64,000 bases of DNA. It comes from Halopenitus malekzadehii. GTDB taxonomy: Archaea; Halobacteriota; Halobacteria; Halobacteriales; Haloferacaceae. The stretch is taken from NCBI RefSeq assembly GCF_900108505.1, contig NZ_FNWU01000001.1:1-64000 (forward strand). Direction: 5' to 3'. Under the pieces are notes generated by a model. The model had not been told where the DNA came from. It saw only the letters and a program-made list of their open reading frames with translations, and did not search any database. Position numbers and translations under genes: made by a program. Of the stretch, positions 30,124 to 40,386 are shown one piece after another; position 1 is the stretch's first letter; each line of letters begins with the position of its first letter.

Positions 30124-31377
30124 TCAGTTCCCGGCGCTGATCGAGACGAACTCGAAATCGGGCGATCGGTCCTCAAACCGGTCGAGTTCGAAGGGATCCC
30201 GCGGAAACGGCGGGTCCGATCCCTCGAGGAGGCACCGAACGAGCGTCGCGGCGATCGGCGAGGTCATGATTCCGCGGCCGTGGAAGCCGGTCGCGACGAT
30301 CAGCCCGTCGGGCGCGTCCGCCGGCGCGTCGATGATCGGCCGCGTGTCCGGCGTCGCGCCGTCGACGCCCGCCCAACCGTCGACGAGCCGCATCGCCCCC
30401 GGAGAGTCGACGAACCGCGGAACGAGGTCGGCGACGTGGTCGCGGAACGCCTCGTCGGCCGACCGGCTCGCGTCGTCCGGGTCGTCCTCGGCGAACGACC
30501 AGCCGCCGACGAGCAGGTCGCCGTTCGCCTCCGGCCGGAAGTAGACGTGTTCGCCGGGGATCCACCCCATCGGGAACGATGCCGGCAGGTTCTCGGGCGG
30601 CCGCAGGACGATACACTGCGTCCGGTAGGGCCGCACCGGCAGCTGCAGGTGGGGAGCAAGCAGGTCCCGGGTCCGCCATCCCGCCGCGGCGACGACGTGG
30701 TCGCACGCGATGAACCCCTGGTCGGTTTCGACGCCGGTCACCTCGTCGCGGTCCGCCGCGACCGCCATCTCGGTGACGGTCACGTCCGTTTCGAAGCGCG
30801 CGCCCGCTTCGGCCGCCTCGGCCTGAACAGTCGTCGCCAGCGTGTACGGGTCGACGTGCCCGGTCCCGTGATACCGCGCGACGCCGACGAACTCGTCCAT
30901 ATCGATCCCCGGCCACTGTTTCCGGGCGTCGTCGGCCTCGATGAACGCGACGTCGACGCCGTTCCCACGCTGTCGCTCGACACGGGCACGCACGGTCTCC
31001 TCGCGTTCGGGCGTCACGAGCTCCACGCTCGGAATCTCCGCGAACTCGAAGGCGCCGGTCCCGTCGTACGACCGGAAGAAGTCGAGCCCGTGGGTCGCGA
31101 TCGACGGGTAATCGGGGTAGGAGGGGATCATCGTGATCTCGCCGGCCGCCCGGGCGGTCGCACCCTGTGCGATCCCGTCCCGTTCGAGGACGAGCACGCG
31201 ATGCGTGTCCGCGAGCTCCCGGGCGACCATACAGCCGATGATGCCGCCGCCGATGACGACCACGCGTGGCTTCCCGCTCCCCGTGTCGTCGTCGATTTCC
31301 GTCCCGTTGCCGTCGCTTTCCGTCCCGTCGGGATCGAACCCGATCGACGCCGCCGTCCCGTCGTGTTCGGCTCCCAT
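30124..31377 (-). CDS. FAD-dependent amine/amino-acid oxidoreductase (DAO family)
   Basis: 417 residues. An acidic 35-residue leader precedes the FAD-binding VVVIGGGIIGCMVARE. The DAO fold continues with a GATARAAGEIT flavin-contact segment, HVVAAAGWRTRDL, and the C-terminal GFHGRGIMTSPIAA. The family includes glycine, sarcosine, D-amino-acid and polyamine-chain oxidases. Together with the class III aminotransferase 31 bp upstream it probably oxidises an amine or amino acid imported by the adjacent ABC system. Last gene of the minus-strand group. Confidence 0.88.
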   Translation of the reverse strand: MGAEHDGTAASIGFDPDGTESDGNGTEIDDDTGSGKPRVVVIGGGIIGCMVARELADTHRVLVLERDGIAQGATARAAGEITMIPSYPDYPSIATHGLDFFRSYDGTGAFEFAEIPSVELVTPEREETVRARVERQRGNGVDVAFIEADDARKQWPGIDMDEFVGVARYHGTGHVDPYTLATTVQAEAAEAGARFETDVTVTEMAVAADRDEVTGVETDQGFIACDHVVAAAGWRTRDLLAPHLQLPVRPYRTQCIVLRPPENLPASFPMGWIPGEHVYFRPEANGDLLVGGWSFAEDDPDDASRSADEAFRDHVADLVPRFVDSPGAMRLVDGWAGVDGATPDTRPIIDAPADAPDGLIVATGFHGRGIMTSPIAATLVRCLLEGSDPPFPRDPFELDRFEDRSPDFEFVSISAGN

Positions 31378-31408: not shown

Positions 31409-32791
31409 TTAGTACTCGTGATCGACCGCGCGGAAGGCGTCCTCGGCGACTTCGAGCGCGTCGTCGATCTGCTCGTCGGTGTGGCTGTAGGTGGTGAAGA
31501 ACCGCTCGCCCTGCATCGGGTTGCCGAAGAGGACCCCGTCGGCGGCCGCCTCGAGCCACCAGTCGGCGAACCGGTCCCCGTTCGCGTGCCAGGTGTCGCG
31601 GTAGGACGCGATCTCGTGGTCGGTCATGTACACCTGCCCCATCGACCCGATGTGTTGAACGTTCACCGGCAGGCCGACGTCGTCGGCCACCTCCTGGAGG
31701 CCGGTGAACAACCGATCGCCGAGCCGGTCGATGTGCTCGTAGACGTCCCGGTCGTCCAGGATCTCGAGCGTCTTGAGGCCCGCCGCGGCCGCGACCGGGT
31801 GCCCGTTGTACGTGCCGCCGTGGAATGCCGAGGAGTTCCACTTCGAGGCCTCCTCCTTGCGCGGGGGGATGATCTCCTCCATAATGTCGGTTCGCCCGCC
31901 GAACCCGGCGACCTGGTAGCCTGCGCCGGCGGCCTTCGCGAACGTCGTCATGTCGGGGGTGATCCCGAACCGACCCTGTGCCGATCCCGGCCCGAGGCGG
32001 AACCCGGTCATTACCTCGTCCCAGATCAGGACGATCCCGAGCTCTTCGGTGAGGTCCCGGAGGAACTCGTGGTAGCCGTCACGGGGTTTCAGACAGCCGC
32101 ACGAGAACATCACCGGCTCGATGATCACGGCCGCCATGTCGTCGGCGTGTTTCCGGAGGATCCGCTCGGTCGCCTCCTTGTCGTTGAACGGAATGGCGAC
32201 CATCGTCTCGCTGACTGCGTCCGGGATCCCCGTCCCGTAGGAGACGGTATTCGGCTCCTTGGCCGGCCCGAGCGCCTCCTCGCTCGCGTAGACGCTCTGG
32301 AGCGCGTAGTCGTGGGCACCCGCATAGCCACCCTCGGGTTTCGCGATCTTCTCCTTGCCCGTGTACGAACGCGCCACGCGCATCGCGTGCATCGTGGCCT
32401 CGGTGCCGCTGTTGGCCATTCGGACACGCTCGATCGACGGGGTCATCTCCACCACCTTCTCCATGAACTCGATCGCGATGGGCTGTGGCGTTGCCGTCAG
32501 GTCGCTCGTGTCGACCTGCGCTTTGACCGCTTCCCGGACCTCGGGGTGGCCGTGACCGAGGATGATCGGGCCGAGCGCGAGCAGGAAGTCGAGGTATTCG
32601 TTCCCGTCCATATCGGTGACGTAGGAGCCGTCCGTCTCCTCGATGTAGAACGGATACGGGTCGAACGATCGAACGTTCGACTCGACGCCGAGCGGCGTCA
32701 CCGACGACGCGCGTTCGTGAAACGACCGGCTGTTCGACGTCCGTTCCTGCAATCGCTTTGCGTGATCGTGCTCGTTGTCTCCGAGACTCAT
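31409..32791 (-). CDS. Class III (PLP) aminotransferase, glutamate-1-semialdehyde aminomutase-like
   Basis: 460 residues from the ATG at 32791. PLP-site features: ANSGTEATMHAMRVAR, IWDEVMTGFRLG (Asp that contacts the pyridine N), the catalytic Lys in TTFAKAAGAGYQVAGFGG, and AFHGGTYNGHPVAAAAG. It resembles HemL in layout but the context is amine catabolism, so it is more likely an omega- or beta-amino-acid/amine transaminase. A minus-strand TATA-like TTTATT at 32816-32822 predicts a start of transcription near 32794, which favours 32791 over the ATG at 32800 and a leaderless message. Confidence 0.87.
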   Translation of the reverse strand: MSLGDNEHDHAKRLQERTSNSRSFHERASSVTPLGVESNVRSFDPYPFYIEETDGSYVTDMDGNEYLDFLLALGPIILGHGHPEVREAVKAQVDTSDLTATPQPIAIEFMEKVVEMTPSIERVRMANSGTEATMHAMRVARSYTGKEKIAKPEGGYAGAHDYALQSVYASEEALGPAKEPNTVSYGTGIPDAVSETMVAIPFNDKEATERILRKHADDMAAVIIEPVMFSCGCLKPRDGYHEFLRDLTEELGIVLIWDEVMTGFRLGPGSAQGRFGITPDMTTFAKAAGAGYQVAGFGGRTDIMEEIIPPRKEEASKWNSSAFHGGTYNGHPVAAAAGLKTLEILDDRDVYEHIDRLGDRLFTGLQEVADDVGLPVNVQHIGSMGQVYMTDHEIASYRDTWHANGDRFADWWLEAAADGVLFGNPMQGERFFTTYSHTDEQIDDALEVAEDAFRAVDHEY

Positions 32792-32921
32792 TGTCACCAT
32801 CGACGGCAGGAGAGGAAATAAATCTTTGCCAAAACGTGTGTTCTACCGAAATTCGTACGACAACATGCTTCGGAGATCGTCAACAGTTCGAAGGTGGTCG
32901 AGCCACGGGCCGGACGCCGAC

Positions 32922-33812
32922 TCACTCCTCCACGGACGCTCGCTCCAGGGGGAGGACCAGCCCCTTCGGGCCGCCCCCGGCCTTCCGGATCTCCTGAGCC
33001 GTCAGTTCGACGACCTCGAACCCACGTGCTTTCAGGGCTGCACGCACCTCGTGGTTCCCGGAGGGGAGCAGGATCGTCCCCGGCTCGACGACGATCGTGC
33101 TCGTCGCACGGTTTCGTTGCTCGCGCATCGGCACCGGAATCGTCTCGATCCCGCGGTCGTGGAGCGTGTCGAGGAACTCCGGCGGCACCGCCTCCGAGTA
33201 GACGAGCGCCAGATCCGGCGCGACCATACTGAACACCAGCGCGAGGTGCGTCTGGCCGGTGCTTTCGGTGCTGCCGAAGATCGGCACCTCGATGACGTCG
33301 ACCCCGTAGGTCTCGAGCACCGTCCGCACCTGTCGAATCCCGGCCGCGTTCGTCGTCTGCGACCGCCCGATCGCGACCGTTCCCTCGTCGATCCACACCA
33401 TGTTGCCGGCCTCGAACCCGCCGTCGCCGTGGACGCTGTGGTAGATCGGCGCCCCCAACTCGATCACGCGCTCGGAGAGACGCCGCTCCTCGCCGTGACG
33501 CGTCTCCTCGACCATGTTCCCGACGACGATGCCGCCCTCGATGGCGAAGCCGACATCCCGGACGAACAGCGACTCCGCCAGGTCGTCTGCGGCGTCGGTC
33601 AGCTGGTGAACGGTGACGCCGCGGGACTCGAGCGCCTCCACGAGCCCCTGGTGTTCCTTGGCCGCCCGCTCCTGTCGCGGCAGGCCGTCCCAGTTCCATG
33701 CGTCCGGGTCGACGACCGTGTTGAACTCCGCGCCCGGCTCGTGAACGAGCACACGTTCGAGCCGGCCGTACTCCGATCGAACGGACGGTTCGAGGTCCCA
33801 GACGTCGCTCAT
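32922..33812 (-). CDS. Amidinotransferase / arginine deiminase-fold protein lacking the catalytic Cys
   Basis: 296 residues. The fold is recognised from SLFVRDVGFAIEGG, GDGGFEAGNMVWID (the EGGD-equivalent region), STGQTHLALVFSMV with the catalytic-type His189, and the C-terminal KAGGGPKGLVLPL. In arginine deiminases, DDAH and amidinotransferases the last motif is GGG-x-R/H-C with a nucleophilic Cys; here residue 284 is Gly. The Asp after His (HLD) is also Ala. Ordinary Cys-dependent deimination is therefore unlikely. Its start overlaps the Lrp gene's stop by 4 nt, tying it to the regulator and the amine locus. Confidence 0.8.
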   Translation of the reverse strand: MSDVWDLEPSVRSEYGRLERVLVHEPGAEFNTVVDPDAWNWDGLPRQERAAKEHQGLVEALESRGVTVHQLTDAADDLAESLFVRDVGFAIEGGIVVGNMVEETRHGEERRLSERVIELGAPIYHSVHGDGGFEAGNMVWIDEGTVAIGRSQTTNAAGIRQVRTVLETYGVDVIEVPIFGSTESTGQTHLALVFSMVAPDLALVYSEAVPPEFLDTLHDRGIETIPVPMREQRNRATSTIVVEPGTILLPSGNHEVRAALKARGFEVVELTAQEIRKAGGGPKGLVLPLERASVEE

Positions 33813-34264
33813 TCGTGATCGATCCGCAGCGTGTGTTCTTCCTTGACGCTGCGCAACGCGACGTCGGTCGCGGTGTCCTCGACGCCGTCGTACTGGCCGA
33901 TCTCCCGCAGCAACTCGGTGAGTTCCCGGCGATCGGCCACGCGAACCTTCAACAGGAGGTCGGCGTCGCCGGTGAGCTCGTGGATCTCCTGGATAGCGGT
34001 GACCTCGACCAGACGTTCGGCGACCTCCGAAGAGCGGCCGGCGGTCGTGTTCACCCGCACGAACCCGACCTCGTTGCGGCCCAGCAGATCTGGATCGAGC
34101 ACCGCGCGGTACTCGCGGATGTAGCCCTCCTCCTCCAGCGCGTTCGTCCGTTCGTGGATCGTCGCCGTCCCCATGTCCAGCCGTCGGGCGATCTCCGAGA
34201 GTGCGGCGCGCCCGTCCGCCTGCAGGATGGCGAGGATCTTTCGGTCGACCTCGTCGAGGTCCAT
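33809..34264 (-). CDS. Lrp/AsnC family transcription regulator
   Basis: 151 residues from the ATG at 34264. N-terminal HTH: DRKILAILQADGRAALSEIA with recognition helix MGTATIHERTNAL; C-terminal RAM ligand domain with the LTGDADLLLKVRV strand. It is the first gene of the minus-strand amine group and diverges from the ABC transporter over a 179-bp spacer, so it is the likely local regulator of both directions. A longer frame (to 34489) crosses the opposite gene and was not used. Confidence 0.92.
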   Translation of the reverse strand: MDLDEVDRKILAILQADGRAALSEIARRLDMGTATIHERTNALEEEGYIREYRAVLDPDLLGRNEVGFVRVNTTAGRSSEVAERLVEVTAIQEIHELTGDADLLLKVRVADRRELTELLREIGQYDGVEDTATDVALRSVKEEHTLRIDHE

Positions 34265-34443
34265 ATGGACCGGTGCAGTCGCATCCCCCCTAGGTGTTTT
34301 GTTTGGCGACACGGTGTTCAGCCCGATCGATGGGCTCTGAAAACATAATATTTCCTCAAACACCTTTGTTCTCATAGAATCGTCTGCTATTCGGCTACTA
34401 TACAAAACATATTTCACTCTCTGCGCTATACTCCCACAGGACA
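34265..34443. promoter_or_regulatory. Divergent promoter region between the Lrp gene and the ABC importer
   Basis: 179 bases, AT-rich compared with the flanks. For the Lrp side a minus-strand box AATATTATG lies around 34344-34352. For the importer side ACTATACAAAAC (about 34397-34408) is the best TATA candidate. A short dyad GCCC-N7-GGGC lies at 34321-34335 between them. Lrp operators are usually degenerate, so no site can be named with confidence. Confidence 0.45.
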
Positions 34444-35454
34444 ATGGGACGTGATACCAAGCGGTCGGCGTCGGGGATCGACGCCGCACTCGTCCGGCGG
34501 CTCCGCCGGAACCAGTACACCGGCGCGGTCGTCAACCTGGCGCCGAGCGCCTTCTGGCTCGGCGTGTTCTTTCTCGCCCCGCTGGCGGTGATGTTCCTCT
34601 TCAGCTTCGGCCAGCGCGGCGCGTTCGGTGAGGTGTTGCTCGCGCCCGAGAACCTCGGGCTCCAACAGTATCGGGAGTTCTTCATCCCCGACGATCGGTC
34701 GCTGATCGGCGGGCTCTGGGTTACGATCGCCTGGGCGATCGAGGCGATCGTGCCGTTCGAACTGTCGCTGACGAGCGGCCAGGCGACGCCGTACGTCAGG
34801 TTGCTGTTCAAGAGCATCGGCTACGGCGTCGTGGCCACGGTCGTCTCGCTCGTCGTGGGCTACCCGATGGCGTACTACCTCGGTCATCTCGCGCCCGAAC
34901 GCTACCAAAACCTGCTCGTCGTCCTCGTCATCCTCCCGTTCTGGGCGTCCTTCCTGGTTCGGATCTACGCGATCCAGCTGCTGTTGTCGGCAAACAGCGT
35001 TCTGATGAACGCGCTCGCGGTCCTGCCGGGGATCGGAGCCGACGTCTCGTTGATGAATTCCCGGTTCGCCGTCCTGCTCGGGCTGGTCTACATCTGGATC
35101 CCCTTCATGATCCTCCCGGTGTACGCGAGCATCGAGGAGATCGACTTCACCTACCGTGAGGCGGCGATGGACCTCGGTGCCGACCGGCTTGAGGCGTTCG
35201 TCCACGTCGTCTTCCCCCTCTCGAAACCCGGCGTGATGGCCGGCAGCGTGCTCGTGTTCATCCCGAGCGCTGGCGCGTACGTGATCCCCGAGCTGCTCGG
35301 CGGAACCGACAGCCAGATGATCGGTAACCTGATCGCCGACCAGTTCGGATCGGCCGGCAACTGGCCGCTCGGGGCGGCGGCGTCGTTCGTGTTGATGGGC
35401 GTGATGCTGTTGAGCATCGCTGCCTATCAGCGCGGCGGGGGTGAGCTCGCGTGA
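34444..35454 (+). CDS. potB: ABC transporter permease, PotB type (spermidine/putrescine-like)
   Basis: 336 residues with about seven predicted membrane helices, the first near residues 37-58. The EAA loop that contacts the ATPase reads YREAAMDLGADRLEAFVHVVFPLSKPGV, as in PotB/PotH permeases. A region of about 50 residues between helices 1 and 2 is longer than in E. coli PotB. First gene of potB-C-D-A; its stop overlaps the next GTG start. Confidence 0.9.
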   Translation: MGRDTKRSASGIDAALVRRLRRNQYTGAVVNLAPSAFWLGVFFLAPLAVMFLFSFGQRGAFGEVLLAPENLGLQQYREFFIPDDRSLIGGLWVTIAWAIEAIVPFELSLTSGQATPYVRLLFKSIGYGVVATVVSLVVGYPMAYYLGHLAPERYQNLLVVLVILPFWASFLVRIYAIQLLLSANSVLMNALAVLPGIGADVSLMNSRFAVLLGLVYIWIPFMILPVYASIEEIDFTYREAAMDLGADRLEAFVHVVFPLSKPGVMAGSVLVFIPSAGAYVIPELLGGTDSQMIGNLIADQFGSAGNWPLGAAASFVLMGVMLLSIAAYQRGGGELA

Positions 35455-36281
35455 GCGGCGTCCTCGGTCGGATCCGGTCCGGCCTGTTCAAACGCGGGAC
35501 CGGGATCCTGCTCGGGCAGACGGCGCTCGTCTACCTGTTCTTGTACATTCCCATCGTCGTCCTCGTCACGCTCTCGTTCAACGACTCGCGATACGCGATC
35601 GTCTGGCAGGGGTTCACCACCGAGTGGTACGCGGCGCTGTTGAGCGGTGAGACGGTCGCCCGGGTGGATCCGAACGCCGCCTGGGCCGCGCTCAGCAACT
35701 CCGTCGAGATCGCCGCGGCGAGCGTGATCATCAGTACGGTCTTCGGGACGATGCTCGCGTTCGCGCTCGACCGCTACGAGTTCCCCGGCAAGCGCCTGTT
35801 CACCGGCGTGGTGTTCATGCCGATCATCATCCCGAGCATCGTGATGGGGATCTCGCTGCTGTTGTTCTTCAACATCGTCGGGATGCAACTCAGCATCCGA
35901 ACCGCGGTCATCGGTCACGTGGCCTTCGGCATCAGCTTCGTCGCCGTCGTCGTCGCGGCGCGGCTCCAGAACTTCGATCGAACCCTCGAGGAGGCGGCGA
36001 TGGACCTCGGGGCCAACGAGCTCGAGACGTTCCGATACGTCACGCTGCCGGTGATAAAGCCGGGCGTCCTCGCGGGCGCGCTGTTGGCGTTCGCGATGAG
36101 CTTCGACGACTACGTCGTGACGTTCTTCATCATCGGCCAGGAGAACACGCTCCCGATCTACTTCTTCGGGATGGTGCGACAGGGGATCTCCCCGGGCGTC
36201 AACGTCATCGCCGCGCTGATCGTGGTCTCGACGATGGTGCTCGTCGGGATCGCCCAGTGGTTCCAGGGGCCGACCTGGTGA
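35451..36281 (+). CDS. potC: ABC transporter permease, PotC type
   Basis: 276 residues from a GTG at 35451 (GTGA overlap with potB). Six or seven helices; the EAA loop is LEEAAMDLGANELETFRYVTLPVIKPGV, followed by the helix with FAMSFDDYVVTFF, a strong signature of PotC/PotI permeases. It forms the membrane channel with PotB. Confidence 0.9.
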   Translation: MSGVLGRIRSGLFKRGTGILLGQTALVYLFLYIPIVVLVTLSFNDSRYAIVWQGFTTEWYAALLSGETVARVDPNAAWAALSNSVEIAAASVIISTVFGTMLAFALDRYEFPGKRLFTGVVFMPIIIPSIVMGISLLLFFNIVGMQLSIRTAVIGHVAFGISFVAVVVAARLQNFDRTLEEAAMDLGANELETFRYVTLPVIKPGVLAGALLAFAMSFDDYVVTFFIIGQENTLPIYFFGMVRQGISPGVNVIAALIVVSTMVLVGIAQWFQGPTW

Positions 36282-36388: not shown

Positions 36389-37555
36389 ATGACACGACAC
36401 CAGAAAAGCGATCGACGGACGTTCCTCCGGACGACCGGCGCTCTCTCGGCCGGCGCGCTCGCCGGGCTTGCGGGTTGCTCCGGTAACGGCGGCGGGGATG
36501 GAAACGGCGGCGGGAACGGTAACGGCGGCGGGAACGGTGGCGGCAATGGCAACGGCGGCGGCGAGATCGAGGACGAGCTCGCCGTCTTCCAGTGGACCGA
36601 TTACTGGCACAACGGGTTCATAAGCGGCTTCGAGGAGGAGTACGACGTCTCGGTTTCGGTCTCGAACTACGGCTCCAACGAGGAGATGTTCAACGCCCTC
36701 CAGGCCGGCGGGACCGGCCAGTACGACGTCATCTTCCCGAGCGACTACATGGTCAACGTCCTCCACGACCAGGACATGATCCAGCCGCTCGACCTCGAGG
36801 CCATCCCCAACTTCGAGAACCTCTCCGAGCGGTTCCGGAACGCACCCTACGACCCCGGCGAACAGCGGTTCTCCGCGCCCTATCAGTGGGGAACCTCCGG
36901 GGTCGCCTACAACGAGAACATGGTCGGCGACATCGAGGTCTCCTCCTGGGAGACGATGTGGAACGAGGAGTTCGCCGGGCAGATGTCGATGCTCGACGAC
37001 GTCCGCGAGACGATGGGTGCAGCCCTGAAGCAGCTGGGCTACTCGCTCAACACGACCGACGAAAGCGAGATCGAGGAGGCAAAGGAGCTGTTGATCCAGC
37101 AGAAGGATCTCCTGTCGACCTACGACTCGACGAACTTCCCGACGAACCTCATCAACGAGCAGATGAGCCCGGTCCACGCCTGGTCCGGCGGCGCCTTCCA
37201 GGCCTACTGGGAGACCTTCGAGGACGGAAGCTCGCCGATCAACTACGTCATCCCCGAGGAGGGAAGCGTCGTATGGGTCGACACCGCGGCGATCACGGCG
37301 GAGGCCGAACACGTCAACGCGGCACACGCGTTCATCGATTACTTCCTCGACGCGCAGGTCGGCGCGGAGATCACGAACTACACCTACTACGGCAGCCCGA
37401 ACGAGGCGGCCGAGGAGTACATCTCCGAGGACGTCCTGAACAACGAATCGATCTACCCGCCCGAGGAGACGATGGAGAACCTCGAGTACATCCAGAACAT
37501 CGGACAGGCCACCACGCTCTATGACGAGGCCTGGCAGGAGATCAAGACGGCGTAA
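36389..37555 (+). CDS. potD: ABC transporter substrate-binding lipoprotein, PotD type
   Basis: 388 residues. Twin-arginine signal (DRRTFLRTTGAL) and lipobox LAGC with Cys30, then a Gly/Asn-rich linker to about residue 55, then the spermidine/putrescine-binding domain: LAVFQWTDYWHNGFISGFEE, YDVIFPSDYMVNVL, and PYQWGTSGVAYNENM. The acidic ligand residues of PotD/PotF cannot all be assigned by eye, so the ligand may be another cationic amine. Tat export and outer membrane-surface lipid anchoring are expected. Confidence 0.9.
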   Translation: MTRHQKSDRRTFLRTTGALSAGALAGLAGCSGNGGGDGNGGGNGNGGGNGGGNGNGGGEIEDELAVFQWTDYWHNGFISGFEEEYDVSVSVSNYGSNEEMFNALQAGGTGQYDVIFPSDYMVNVLHDQDMIQPLDLEAIPNFENLSERFRNAPYDPGEQRFSAPYQWGTSGVAYNENMVGDIEVSSWETMWNEEFAGQMSMLDDVRETMGAALKQLGYSLNTTDESEIEEAKELLIQQKDLLSTYDSTNFPTNLINEQMSPVHAWSGGAFQAYWETFEDGSSPINYVIPEEGSVVWVDTAAITAEAEHVNAAHAFIDYFLDAQVGAEITNYTYYGSPNEAAEEYISEDVLNNESIYPPEETMENLEYIQNIGQATTLYDEAWQEIKTA

Positions 37556-37558
37556 TCG

Positions 37559-38692
37559 ATGACGACGTACGACGTCCGGATGGAGGGGGTGACGAAGCGG
37601 TTCGACGACGTGGTCGCGGTCGACGACGTCGACCTGTCCGTGGAATCCGGGCAGTTCCTGACCCTCCTCGGTCCGAGTGGCTGCGGCAAGACGACTCTGC
37701 TTCGGTGTATCGACGGGTTCGAGACGCCGACGGAGGGGACGGTGTACATCCAGGACGAGGACGTGACGTACGTTCCGCCGTTCGATCGCGACACGAGTAT
37801 GGTCTTTCAGTCGTACGCCCTGTTCCCGCACATGACCGTCGGCGAGAACGTCGCCTTCGGACTCCAGATGCAGGGCCTGGACGCGGGGGGCGAGGCCGGC
37901 CGCGGCGGGGTTGGCAACTCACTGAAACGACTGTTCCGTCGGAAGTCCAACGAGGAGATCGAGGCGCGCGTCTCGCGGATGCTCGAGCTCGTCGAGCTCC
38001 CCGGAACGGCGGACCGCGACGTGAGCGAGCTCTCCGGCGGTCAACAGCAACGGATCGCGCTGGCGCGGGCACTCATCACCGAGCCGACCGTCCTCCTGCT
38101 CGATGAGCCGCTCGGCGCGCTCGATCTGAAGCTGCGGAAGAATATGCAGGTCGAGCTGAAGAACCTCCAGGAGGAGCTCGAGACGACCTTCGTCTACGTG
38201 ACCCACGACCAGGAGGAGGCGTTGACGATGTCCGACCGGATCGCGGTGATGAACGACGGACGGATCGAGCAGCTCGGCACCGCCACGGAGATCTACGAGG
38301 AGCCGGCCACCGAGTTCGTCGCCGACTTCATCGGCGAGACGAACCTGATCCACGGTGACTACGGCGAGACCGACGATGGCGCCGTGATCGAACGCGACGG
38401 GACGCGCTTCCACGTCCCGCGTGACCCCGCGGCGGGGACGAGCGCGGCCTTCGCGATCCGCCCCGAGAAGATCCGCGTCGGCGCCGACGCCGACGGCCTC
38501 CGGAACGTCTTCGACGGGGAAGTCGTCGACGAGATCTACAAGGGCAACCTCGGCAAGTACGTCGTCGAACTCGACACCGGCGACCGGCTGACCGTCGATA
38601 TGCAGATCCGCGATCAGGGCGGATCGCTGCGGCGCGGCGAGACCGTCCGTCTCGGCTGGGCCGCCGACAACTGCGTCGTCCTCACTGAATAG
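37559..38692 (+). CDS. potA: ABC transporter ATP-binding protein, PotA type
   Basis: 377 residues, 3 bp after potD. Walker A GPSGCGKTTLL, signature LSGGQQQRIALARAL, Walker B VLLLDEPLGALD, switch His in THDQEEA, then a C-terminal TOBE domain. Between the Q-loop (FQSYALFPHM) and the signature there is a Gly/Arg-rich insert of about 25 residues near positions 101-128 that standard PotA lacks. Confidence 0.92.
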   Translation: MTTYDVRMEGVTKRFDDVVAVDDVDLSVESGQFLTLLGPSGCGKTTLLRCIDGFETPTEGTVYIQDEDVTYVPPFDRDTSMVFQSYALFPHMTVGENVAFGLQMQGLDAGGEAGRGGVGNSLKRLFRRKSNEEIEARVSRMLELVELPGTADRDVSELSGGQQQRIALARALITEPTVLLLDEPLGALDLKLRKNMQVELKNLQEELETTFVYVTHDQEEALTMSDRIAVMNDGRIEQLGTATEIYEEPATEFVADFIGETNLIHGDYGETDDGAVIERDGTRFHVPRDPAAGTSAAFAIRPEKIRVGADADGLRNVFDGEVVDEIYKGNLGKYVVELDTGDRLTVDMQIRDQGGSLRRGETVRLGWAADNCVVLTE

Positions 38693-38886: not shown

Positions 38887-40386
38887 ATGCACTACACAGG
38901 CACGCTCCAGGAGACGCACGCACAGGCACGCGAGGACATCGACCGCGAGTTCGGCGCCGTCATCGACGGCGAGACGCGGTCGGCGGCCTCCGGCGAGACG
39001 TTCGAGCCGACCGATCCCGCCGTGAACGAGCCGATCACCACGGTCCCCAGCTGCGACGCGACCGACGTCGAGGCCGCCGTCGAGGCGGCCGACGCGGCCG
39101 CCGACGAGTGGGGCGGGATGGACGCGAGCGACCGGGAGGACCTGCTCCGCGAGTGGGTCGCCGCGATGCGCGACCACCTCGACGAGTTCGCGCTGCTCGG
39201 AGCCCTCGAGGTGGGCAAGCCGCTCGAGTTCGCCCGCGCGGACGTCGAGAACGGCCTCGACTTCCTCGAGTACTACGCGAGCGTCGCGGTCGCCGAGACG
39301 GGCGAGTACGTCCCGACCGGCGACGACTCCCACACGTACGTCCGCCGGGAGCCCTACGGCGTCACCGGCCAGATCCTGCCGTGGAACTACCCGATCCTGC
39401 TGATGGGCTGGAAGGTCGGCGCCGCCCTCGCGGCCGGCAACACGGCCGTCGTGAAGCCGCCGAGCCCCGCACCGCTGTCGGTCATCCTGGCCGGCCAGCT
39501 GGCCGCCGAGACGCTGCCGGACGGCGTGGTGAACGTCGTCCCCGGCTCGGGCTCCGAAGTCGGCGATCCGCTCATCGACCATCCCCGCGTCGGCAAGATC
39601 TCCTTCACCGGCTCCGTTCCTGTGGGCCAGGCGATCATGCGGACTGCCGCGGACACGGTCACGCCGGTCACGCTCGAGCTCGGCGGGAAGAATCCCTTCA
39701 TCGTTTTCCCGGATGCCGACGTCGAGGAGGCGGCCGCAACGGTGGCGACCGGCGGGATGTACAACGCCGGCCAGTCGTGTGACTCGGCGACCCGGATCTT
39801 GGTTCACGAGGACGTCAAGGAGGAGTTCCGCGAGGCCTACCTCGAGGAGCTCGACGGCTGGGAACCCGGCGATCCGCTCGCCGAGGGAACCACGATGGGG
39901 CCGCTCGCCTACGGCGGCCACTTCGATGACGTCGACGACTACGTCGACCTCGGCCGCGAGGAGGGCGCGACGCTGCTCCGCGGCGGTCCGCTCGAGGACG
40001 AGGACTACGCCGACGGCGCCTTCTACCGGCCCACGGTCTTCGACGACGTCGACCCCGAGATGCGAATCGCCCAGGAGGAGGTGTTCGGCCCGGTCCAGTT
40101 CCTCTTCGAGTTCGGCGACTACGAGGAGGCGATCGAAATCGCCAACGGCGTCGACTACGGGCTCACCGCCGGCATCGCGACCGGGAACCCGTCGGTCGCC
40201 CATCGCGCGGCCGCCGACGTCGAGGCCGGCAGCGTCTGGGTGAACCGCTACTTCGGCACCGTTCCCGGCACGCCCTTCGGCGGGTTCAAACAGTCCGGCT
40301 TCGGCCGCGAGTGTGCCGCCCAGGCGATCGAGGAGCACCAACGCGCGAAGTCGGTCAACATGGCGATCGACGAGCCGCCGTACTAG
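38887..40386 (+). CDS. NAD(P)-dependent aldehyde dehydrogenase
   Basis: 499 residues. Conserved ALDH features: PWNYPILLMGWKVGAALAAGN (cofactor/oxyanion Asn), TGSVPVGQAIM, catalytic Glu264 in LELGGKNP and Cys298 in NAGQSCDSATR, and the late EEVFGPV. Closest in type to betaine-aldehyde / 4-aminobutyraldehyde dehydrogenases. Same strand as the pot genes, 194 bp after potA; it probably oxidises the aldehyde formed from the imported amine. Preceded by a 22-bp tandem repeat. Confidence 0.9.
   Translation: MHYTGTLQETHAQAREDIDREFGAVIDGETRSAASGETFEPTDPAVNEPITTVPSCDATDVEAAVEAADAAADEWGGMDASDREDLLREWVAAMRDHLDEFALLGALEVGKPLEFARADVENGLDFLEYYASVAVAETGEYVPTGDDSHTYVRREPYGVTGQILPWNYPILLMGWKVGAALAAGNTAVVKPPSPAPLSVILAGQLAAETLPDGVVNVVPGSGSEVGDPLIDHPRVGKISFTGSVPVGQAIMRTAADTVTPVTLELGGKNPFIVFPDADVEEAAATVATGGMYNAGQSCDSATRILVHEDVKEEFREAYLEELDGWEPGDPLAEGTTMGPLAYGGHFDDVDDYVDLGREEGATLLRGGPLEDEDYADGAFYRPTVFDDVDPEMRIAQEEVFGPVQFLFEFGDYEEAIEIANGVDYGLTAGIATGNPSVAHRAAADVEAGSVWVNRYFGTVPGTPFGGFKQSGFGRECAAQAIEEHQRAKSVNMAIDEPPY

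Follow-up and report, generated by a model that had tools for sequence, protein, structure and literature searches.

The open reading frame at positions 32922-33812 (minus strand) of the window, the 64,000-nucleotide stretch of Halopenitus malekzadehii DNA analysed here, encodes a 296-residue protein of the arginine deiminase (ADI) superfamily which has lost the catalytic cysteine. Together with its orthologs, it makes up a real, clade-wide, and apparently undescribed variant of a known superfamily. The clade protein probably no longer cuts arginine-like molecules; its role is more likely to sense or process another compound in a nutrient pathway of the polyamine type. As the best reading, to which we assign a probability of roughly 0.4, we propose a non-hydrolytic ligand-binding protein that would act with the Lrp/AsnC-type regulator encoded next to it.

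The frame is intact and open over its full length, and its coordinates and strand had been given correctly in the preliminary description. The Pfam ADI profile matches the protein with 78.9 bits (cut-off 22.8), and this is the only match of the profile in the 3.1-Mb genome of H. malekzadehii. Among solved structures, arginine deiminases and DDAH match best; by this homology alone, the protein would adopt the five-bladed alpha/beta propeller fold. An AlphaFold2 model computed from a shallow alignment of five sequences (the window protein and four orthologs) reached a pLDDT of 40. Three scans of viral contigs, performed to deepen the alignment, gave no relatives. In public records, the clade proteins are annotated as 'arginine deiminase family protein'; a publication describing the cysteine-less clade was not found in the literature searched.

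The characterised guanidino-acting enzymes of the superfamily rely on a cysteine. ADI, DDAH, and NnhA use this residue for catalysis, and in the related enzyme NnhA the exchanges C357A and C357S abolish activity (PMC11659421). In the window protein, the C-terminal motif reads A-G-G-G-P-K-G-L-V-L-P: the codons of Lys283 and Gly284 (32961-32966, minus strand; Gly284 at 32961-32963) stand in place of the (His/Arg)-Cys nucleophile motif of the superfamily. Gly284 aligns with the cysteine of the ADIs from Streptococcus pyogenes and P. aeruginosa and of DDAH, exactly where the cysteine had been said to belong. Because the whole protein contains not a single cysteine, no other one can fill the active site; a substitute nucleophile, for which a check had been proposed, is thus ruled out, and no cysteine is conserved in the orthologs either. 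With both the nucleophilic cysteine and the second guanidinium-binding aspartate gone, the covalent hydrolysis of the superfamily should be impossible in the clade protein, and arginine deimination very probably cannot occur.

In order to determine the extent of the clade, 392 genomes of the same order were searched. Orthologs with 65-92% identity occur in 19 other genomes from five families, among them Halopenitus persicus, Halorubrum californiense, Hrr. ezzemoulense, Natribaculum, and Haladaptatus, which gives a clade of 20 genomes. The motif of all orthologs is G-G-[PL]-K-G-[LI]-[VI]-L-P. In a profile-based count, which left out 16 fragments lacking the nucleophile column, this column holds glycine in 21 of 21 distinct clade sequences and cysteine in 40 of 40 distinct outside homologs. 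Cysteine is present in the homologs of Thermomicrobium, Kozakia, Ensifer, Enterococcus, Streptomyces, Shinella, and Sinorhizobium, in those of genomes of the same phylum outside the haloarchaea, and in the other DDAH/ADI-like proteins of the order. In a rapidly computed tree whose outgroup branches are long, the Gly sequences occupy one side of a branch with an SH-aLRT value of 99; on this tree the group is monophyletic and the glycine had one origin. The alignment proposed beforehand therefore shows that Gly284 defines a conserved clade, and a point mutation in one deviant sequence is ruled out.

The remaining pocket was compared in a 27-row alignment, in which 112 of the 296 columns are invariant within the clade. 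We take the roles of the pocket residues to be those known from ADI and DDAH, carried over by alignment. Asp86, Arg105, Glu134, and His189 do not vary among the 20 members; these include the catalytic histidine, whose motif had been noted as well kept, and its glutamate partner. The pocket therefore gives the impression of remodelling and not of decay. Relative to the cysteine-bearing bacterial relatives, Arg85-Asp86 is kept, and the changes are Cys to Gly284, the preceding His/Arg to Lys283, and Asn to Ser238; Lys283 and Gly284 are each invariant and do not drift. Arg153 of most relatives, presumably the ligand of the substrate carboxylate as in ADI, is Thr153 in the clade. Of the two guanidinium-binding aspartates of ArcA, Asp86 is present, and the one of the HLD motif is replaced by Ala191; this column contains alanine in 19 clade members and threonine in one, and aspartate in all seven bacterial relatives and most other homologs. 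The HLA motif at 189-191 is thus real, but it is less diagnostic than had been claimed: a solved DDAH aligned to the clade protein reads HLK at this place, and a haloarchaeal arginine-deiminase-like protein (L030) has MHLL instead of MHLD while keeping its cysteine (GGLHC), so that the aspartate varies even among cysteine-bearing members. The loop 'GSTESTGQ' preceding His189 was considered as a clade-specific insertion and rejected, as canonical ADIs have a loop of equal length; the shorter form is consequently a deletion in some bacterial relatives.

Two further types of relatives deviate at the active site. A second ADI-superfamily protein of two congeners (L094:6935-7894 and L095, the matching region of G153), which was not found in the H. 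malekzadehii genome, keeps the cysteine (NSGSIHCC) and lacks the catalytic histidine (ETKG replaces xHLD); by its motifs, it is another active-site-degenerate relative. In small genomes assigned to the same order (L025, L026, L027, L106), an ADI-like protein retains GGGIKC and HLD, has asparagine for the first guanidinium-binding aspartate (RTMSN versus xxxRD), and isoleucine for Arg105.

A lost catalytic residue is typical of a gene decaying on its way to loss, and the missing cysteine is the only observation that supports such a fate here. We compared dN/dS against two congeneric and three more distant genomes. For the ADI-like gene, the values of 0.11-0.21 signal purifying selection; they are lower than nearly all values of the transporter, aldehyde dehydrogenase, and oxidoreductase genes of the surrounding island and higher than those of the aminotransferase and lrp, the class-III aminotransferase having the lowest or second-lowest value in the island. 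Given these values, the intact frame in the orthologs, the single origin of the glycine, and the 112 invariant columns, decay is refuted for all practical purposes.

The gene lies in what its neighbours suggest is an island of amine or polyamine catabolism. On the minus strand, lrp and the ADI-like gene are followed by a class-III aminotransferase of the glutamate-1-semialdehyde aminomutase/GntE/beta-transaminase group (31409-32800) and an FAD-dependent amine/amino-acid oxidoreductase of the DAO family (30124-31377). Divergently, on the plus strand, there are a polyamine-type ABC transporter and an aldehyde dehydrogenase resembling betaine aldehyde or aminobutyraldehyde dehydrogenases (38887-40386). 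The transporter consists of a PotB-like permease (34444-35454), a permease named PotC-like from its place in the cluster (35451-36281), a solute-binding protein resembling PotD/PotF (36389-37555), and an ATPase named PotA-like from sequence and place (37559-38692). Profile matches identify all of these except PotC and PotA, which are assigned from their open reading frames and synteny. This gene order recurs, slightly varied, in the 19 orthologous loci: in some, a second class-III aminotransferase is added, and in three the aldehyde dehydrogenase match is only 32-38% and may not be an ortholog. One congener (L036 of G076) has lost potBCD and the larger part of potA; the other genes of the island (lrp, ADI-like, aminotransferase, oxidoreductase, and aldehyde dehydrogenase) are still present there under purifying selection. 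Carbon-nitrogen hydrolases are known partners in guanidino and ureido degradation; in each of the seven loci of one family (f17), and in no other locus, a gene for one separates lrp from the divergent transporter genes (for example L040:8021-8998 and, reverse-complemented, L044 8578-9423, besides five others). Sister aminotransferase loci (L138, L139, L140, L141, L147) possess FAD oxidoreductases and a ligase resembling glutamine synthetase, which may be a gamma-glutamyl-amine ligase; none of the loci examined combines it with the ADI-like gene. It is the combination of transporter, enzymes, and sister-locus ligase that suggests the catabolic role. Note that the H. malekzadehii genome also contains three ureohydrolase-family genes for guanidino compounds.

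The closest genomic tie of the ADI-like gene is to the Lrp/AsnC-family regulator of 151 residues (33809-34264, minus strand; Pfam AsnC_trans_reg and HTH). A comparison with orthologs of 149-152 residues places its true start at 34264, not at 34489. In the window the overlap of the two genes is 4 bases; across the loci there is either such an overlap or a gap of a few bases, and the genes are adjacent in every locus examined. At a threshold of E <= 1e-40, the 20 genomes with the Lrp ortholog, out of 392, are precisely those that carry the ADI-like gene. The idea that the protein is a partner of the overlapping Lrp gene is strengthened on its genomic side by this count; a physical or functional link with Lrp, the binding of a ligand, and the polyamine-like nature of the substrate are inferred. 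The aminotransferase occurs in 31 genomes, with 12 further loci that lack the lrp/ADI-like pair. In the aminotransferase tree the pair-less loci appear in several places, with at least three changes of state by the starred branches; this scatter indicates that the two genes are passed on together, with some independence from the core of the pathway. At locus L137, transporter and aminotransferase are retained, and lrp and the ADI-like gene are both absent, a joint absence more readily explained by a regulatory unit than by an enzymatic step that is obligatory. Inheritance as a unit favours a regulatory role of the pair, although neighbouring genes that are simply inherited together would give the same picture. 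The divergent intergenic region between the lrp and transporter operons (34265-34443) contains the inverted pair AGGTGTTT (34292-34299) and AAACACCT (34358-34365), which is a possible Lrp operator. Near the start of lrp, close relatives retain a conserved stretch (CAAAACACCTAGGG; CAAAACAC(C/A)TAGGG).

According to our preferred reading, the pseudo-deiminase would keep the scaffold of a guanidino-modifying enzyme and part of the substrate pocket, bind one of the compounds that the island around it handles, be it a small amine, a guanidino compound, or an amino acid, and control this island together with the coupled Lrp protein; the divergent promoters would be expected within 34265-34443. In a stricter form, which we consider speculative and rather unlikely, lrp and the pseudo-deiminase would constitute a two-gene unit in which the ADI fold serves as dedicated ligand sensor; the unit would detect an amine or guanidino compound after import and govern both its uptake and its breakdown. 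An active second paralog in the same genome is ruled out as partner by the single ADI-family match, and for the same reason the protein has no other family member to pair with, which argues for a role beside Lrp. Against such a role, it must be considered that the shared occurrence of adjacent, overlapping genes can mean joint inheritance and not joint function, that Lrp/AsnC proteins own a ligand-binding domain, which is present here, and need no partner, and that the retained His-Glu dyad exceeds what simple binding needs. We know of no ADI-fold protein that acts with Lrp or has been described as ligand sensor of an archaeal Lrp, and the literature searched contained no precedent for the former.

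The dyad leads to the main rival, a tentative but serious alternative: an active enzyme of non-cysteine chemistry, in which His189-Glu134 would serve as general base that activates water or abstracts a proton from a substrate carbon, thereby adding a step to amine catabolism, and in which Lys283 and the space left by Gly284 would adapt the pocket to a new substrate. The invariance of Asp86, Arg105, Glu134, and His189 in 20 of 20 members and of Lys283 and Gly284 is consistent with this chemistry, as is the position of the gene among catabolic enzymes and a transporter, the presence of some cysteine-bearing relatives in ABC-transporter operons, and the carbon-nitrogen hydrolase adjoining lrp in the seven loci. 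However, the characterised guanidino-acting enzymes of the superfamily use cysteine, the second guanidinium-binding aspartate is lost as well, and the aminotransferase persists at loci without the ADI-like gene, so that the ADI-like protein is not an obligatory step of the aminotransferase pathway. The same loci bear on the improbable case of a non-catalytic subunit or scaffold that stabilises or tunes an island enzyme. The aminotransferase would be the most likely client, being adjacent in nearly all loci and, like the ADI-like protein, strongly conserved; yet its orthologs without the ADI-like gene still share 68-80% identity, and at L052 and L053 other genes lie between the two. Continued hydrolysis of guanidino compounds, either by single displacement through a water molecule activated by the histidine or by means of a thiol that the substrate provides, is more doubtful still: one guanidinium-binding aspartate (Asp86), Arg105, and the His-Glu pair remain for it, but the cysteine and Asp191 are both lost, the genome already has its three ureohydrolase-family genes, and we know of no precedent.

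Since the clade protein is annotated as arginine deiminase and yet very probably cannot deiminate arginine, metabolic reconstructions in which it figures as ADI would be in error. If it proves to be a sensor or a new catalyst, a fold of covalent catalysis would have been reused after loss of the nucleophile, with the acid/base pair kept. The hosts of the clade are halophilic archaea open to genetic manipulation.

Among known systems, ArcA (Pfam PF02274, NCBIfam TIGR01078) matches the clade protein significantly along most of its length and shares with it the REQ stretch, a loop of the same length ahead of the catalytic histidine, the GG-x-x-(C) C-terminus, and Asp86, Arg105, Glu134, and His189. 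It differs in having the nucleophilic cysteine and the HLD aspartate and in its size of about 410 residues with a helical insertion, as compared to 296; the TIGR01078 score of the window protein is 95.6 bits, whereas the curated cut-off is 489.1. Bacterial DDAH (PDB 1h70, 3bpb) resembles the clade protein in its single-domain size, in the alignment over residues 30-283, and in lacking the HLD aspartate, but it possesses the cysteine, and the window protein reaches 69.6 and 63.6 bits against curated scores of 340 and 450. The factors eIF6 and aIF6 are non-enzymatic and bind the ribosome; we know of no close sequence relation between them and the clade. Both are listed in the same fold superfamily (PMC11659421). 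Human PADI6 is a superfamily member in which alanine replaces the catalytic cysteine and which is inactive on standard substrates (PMC11402830). It differs from the clade protein in being a vertebrate protein with no operon or regulator link, and its alanine is flanked by two cysteines, one of which has been proposed as possible catalytic residue. Haloarchaeal GlnA-2 or Puu-type polyamine catabolism, with a glutamate-putrescine ligase activity known in Haloferax mediterranei (PMC8394153), is resembled by the sister loci with their glutamine-synthetase-like gene and FAD oxidoreductases; in contrast, no glutamate-putrescine ligase-type gene is present in the island loci searched, and the H. malekzadehii genome has one elsewhere. 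The closest outside relatives are the 'arginine deiminase family' proteins of Thermomicrobium roseum, Kozakia, Ensifer, and Shinella, which share 28-38% identity over nearly the full length and in some cases likewise belong to ABC-transporter operons, but all of which carry GGG-x-H-C-S-T and HLD or HID.
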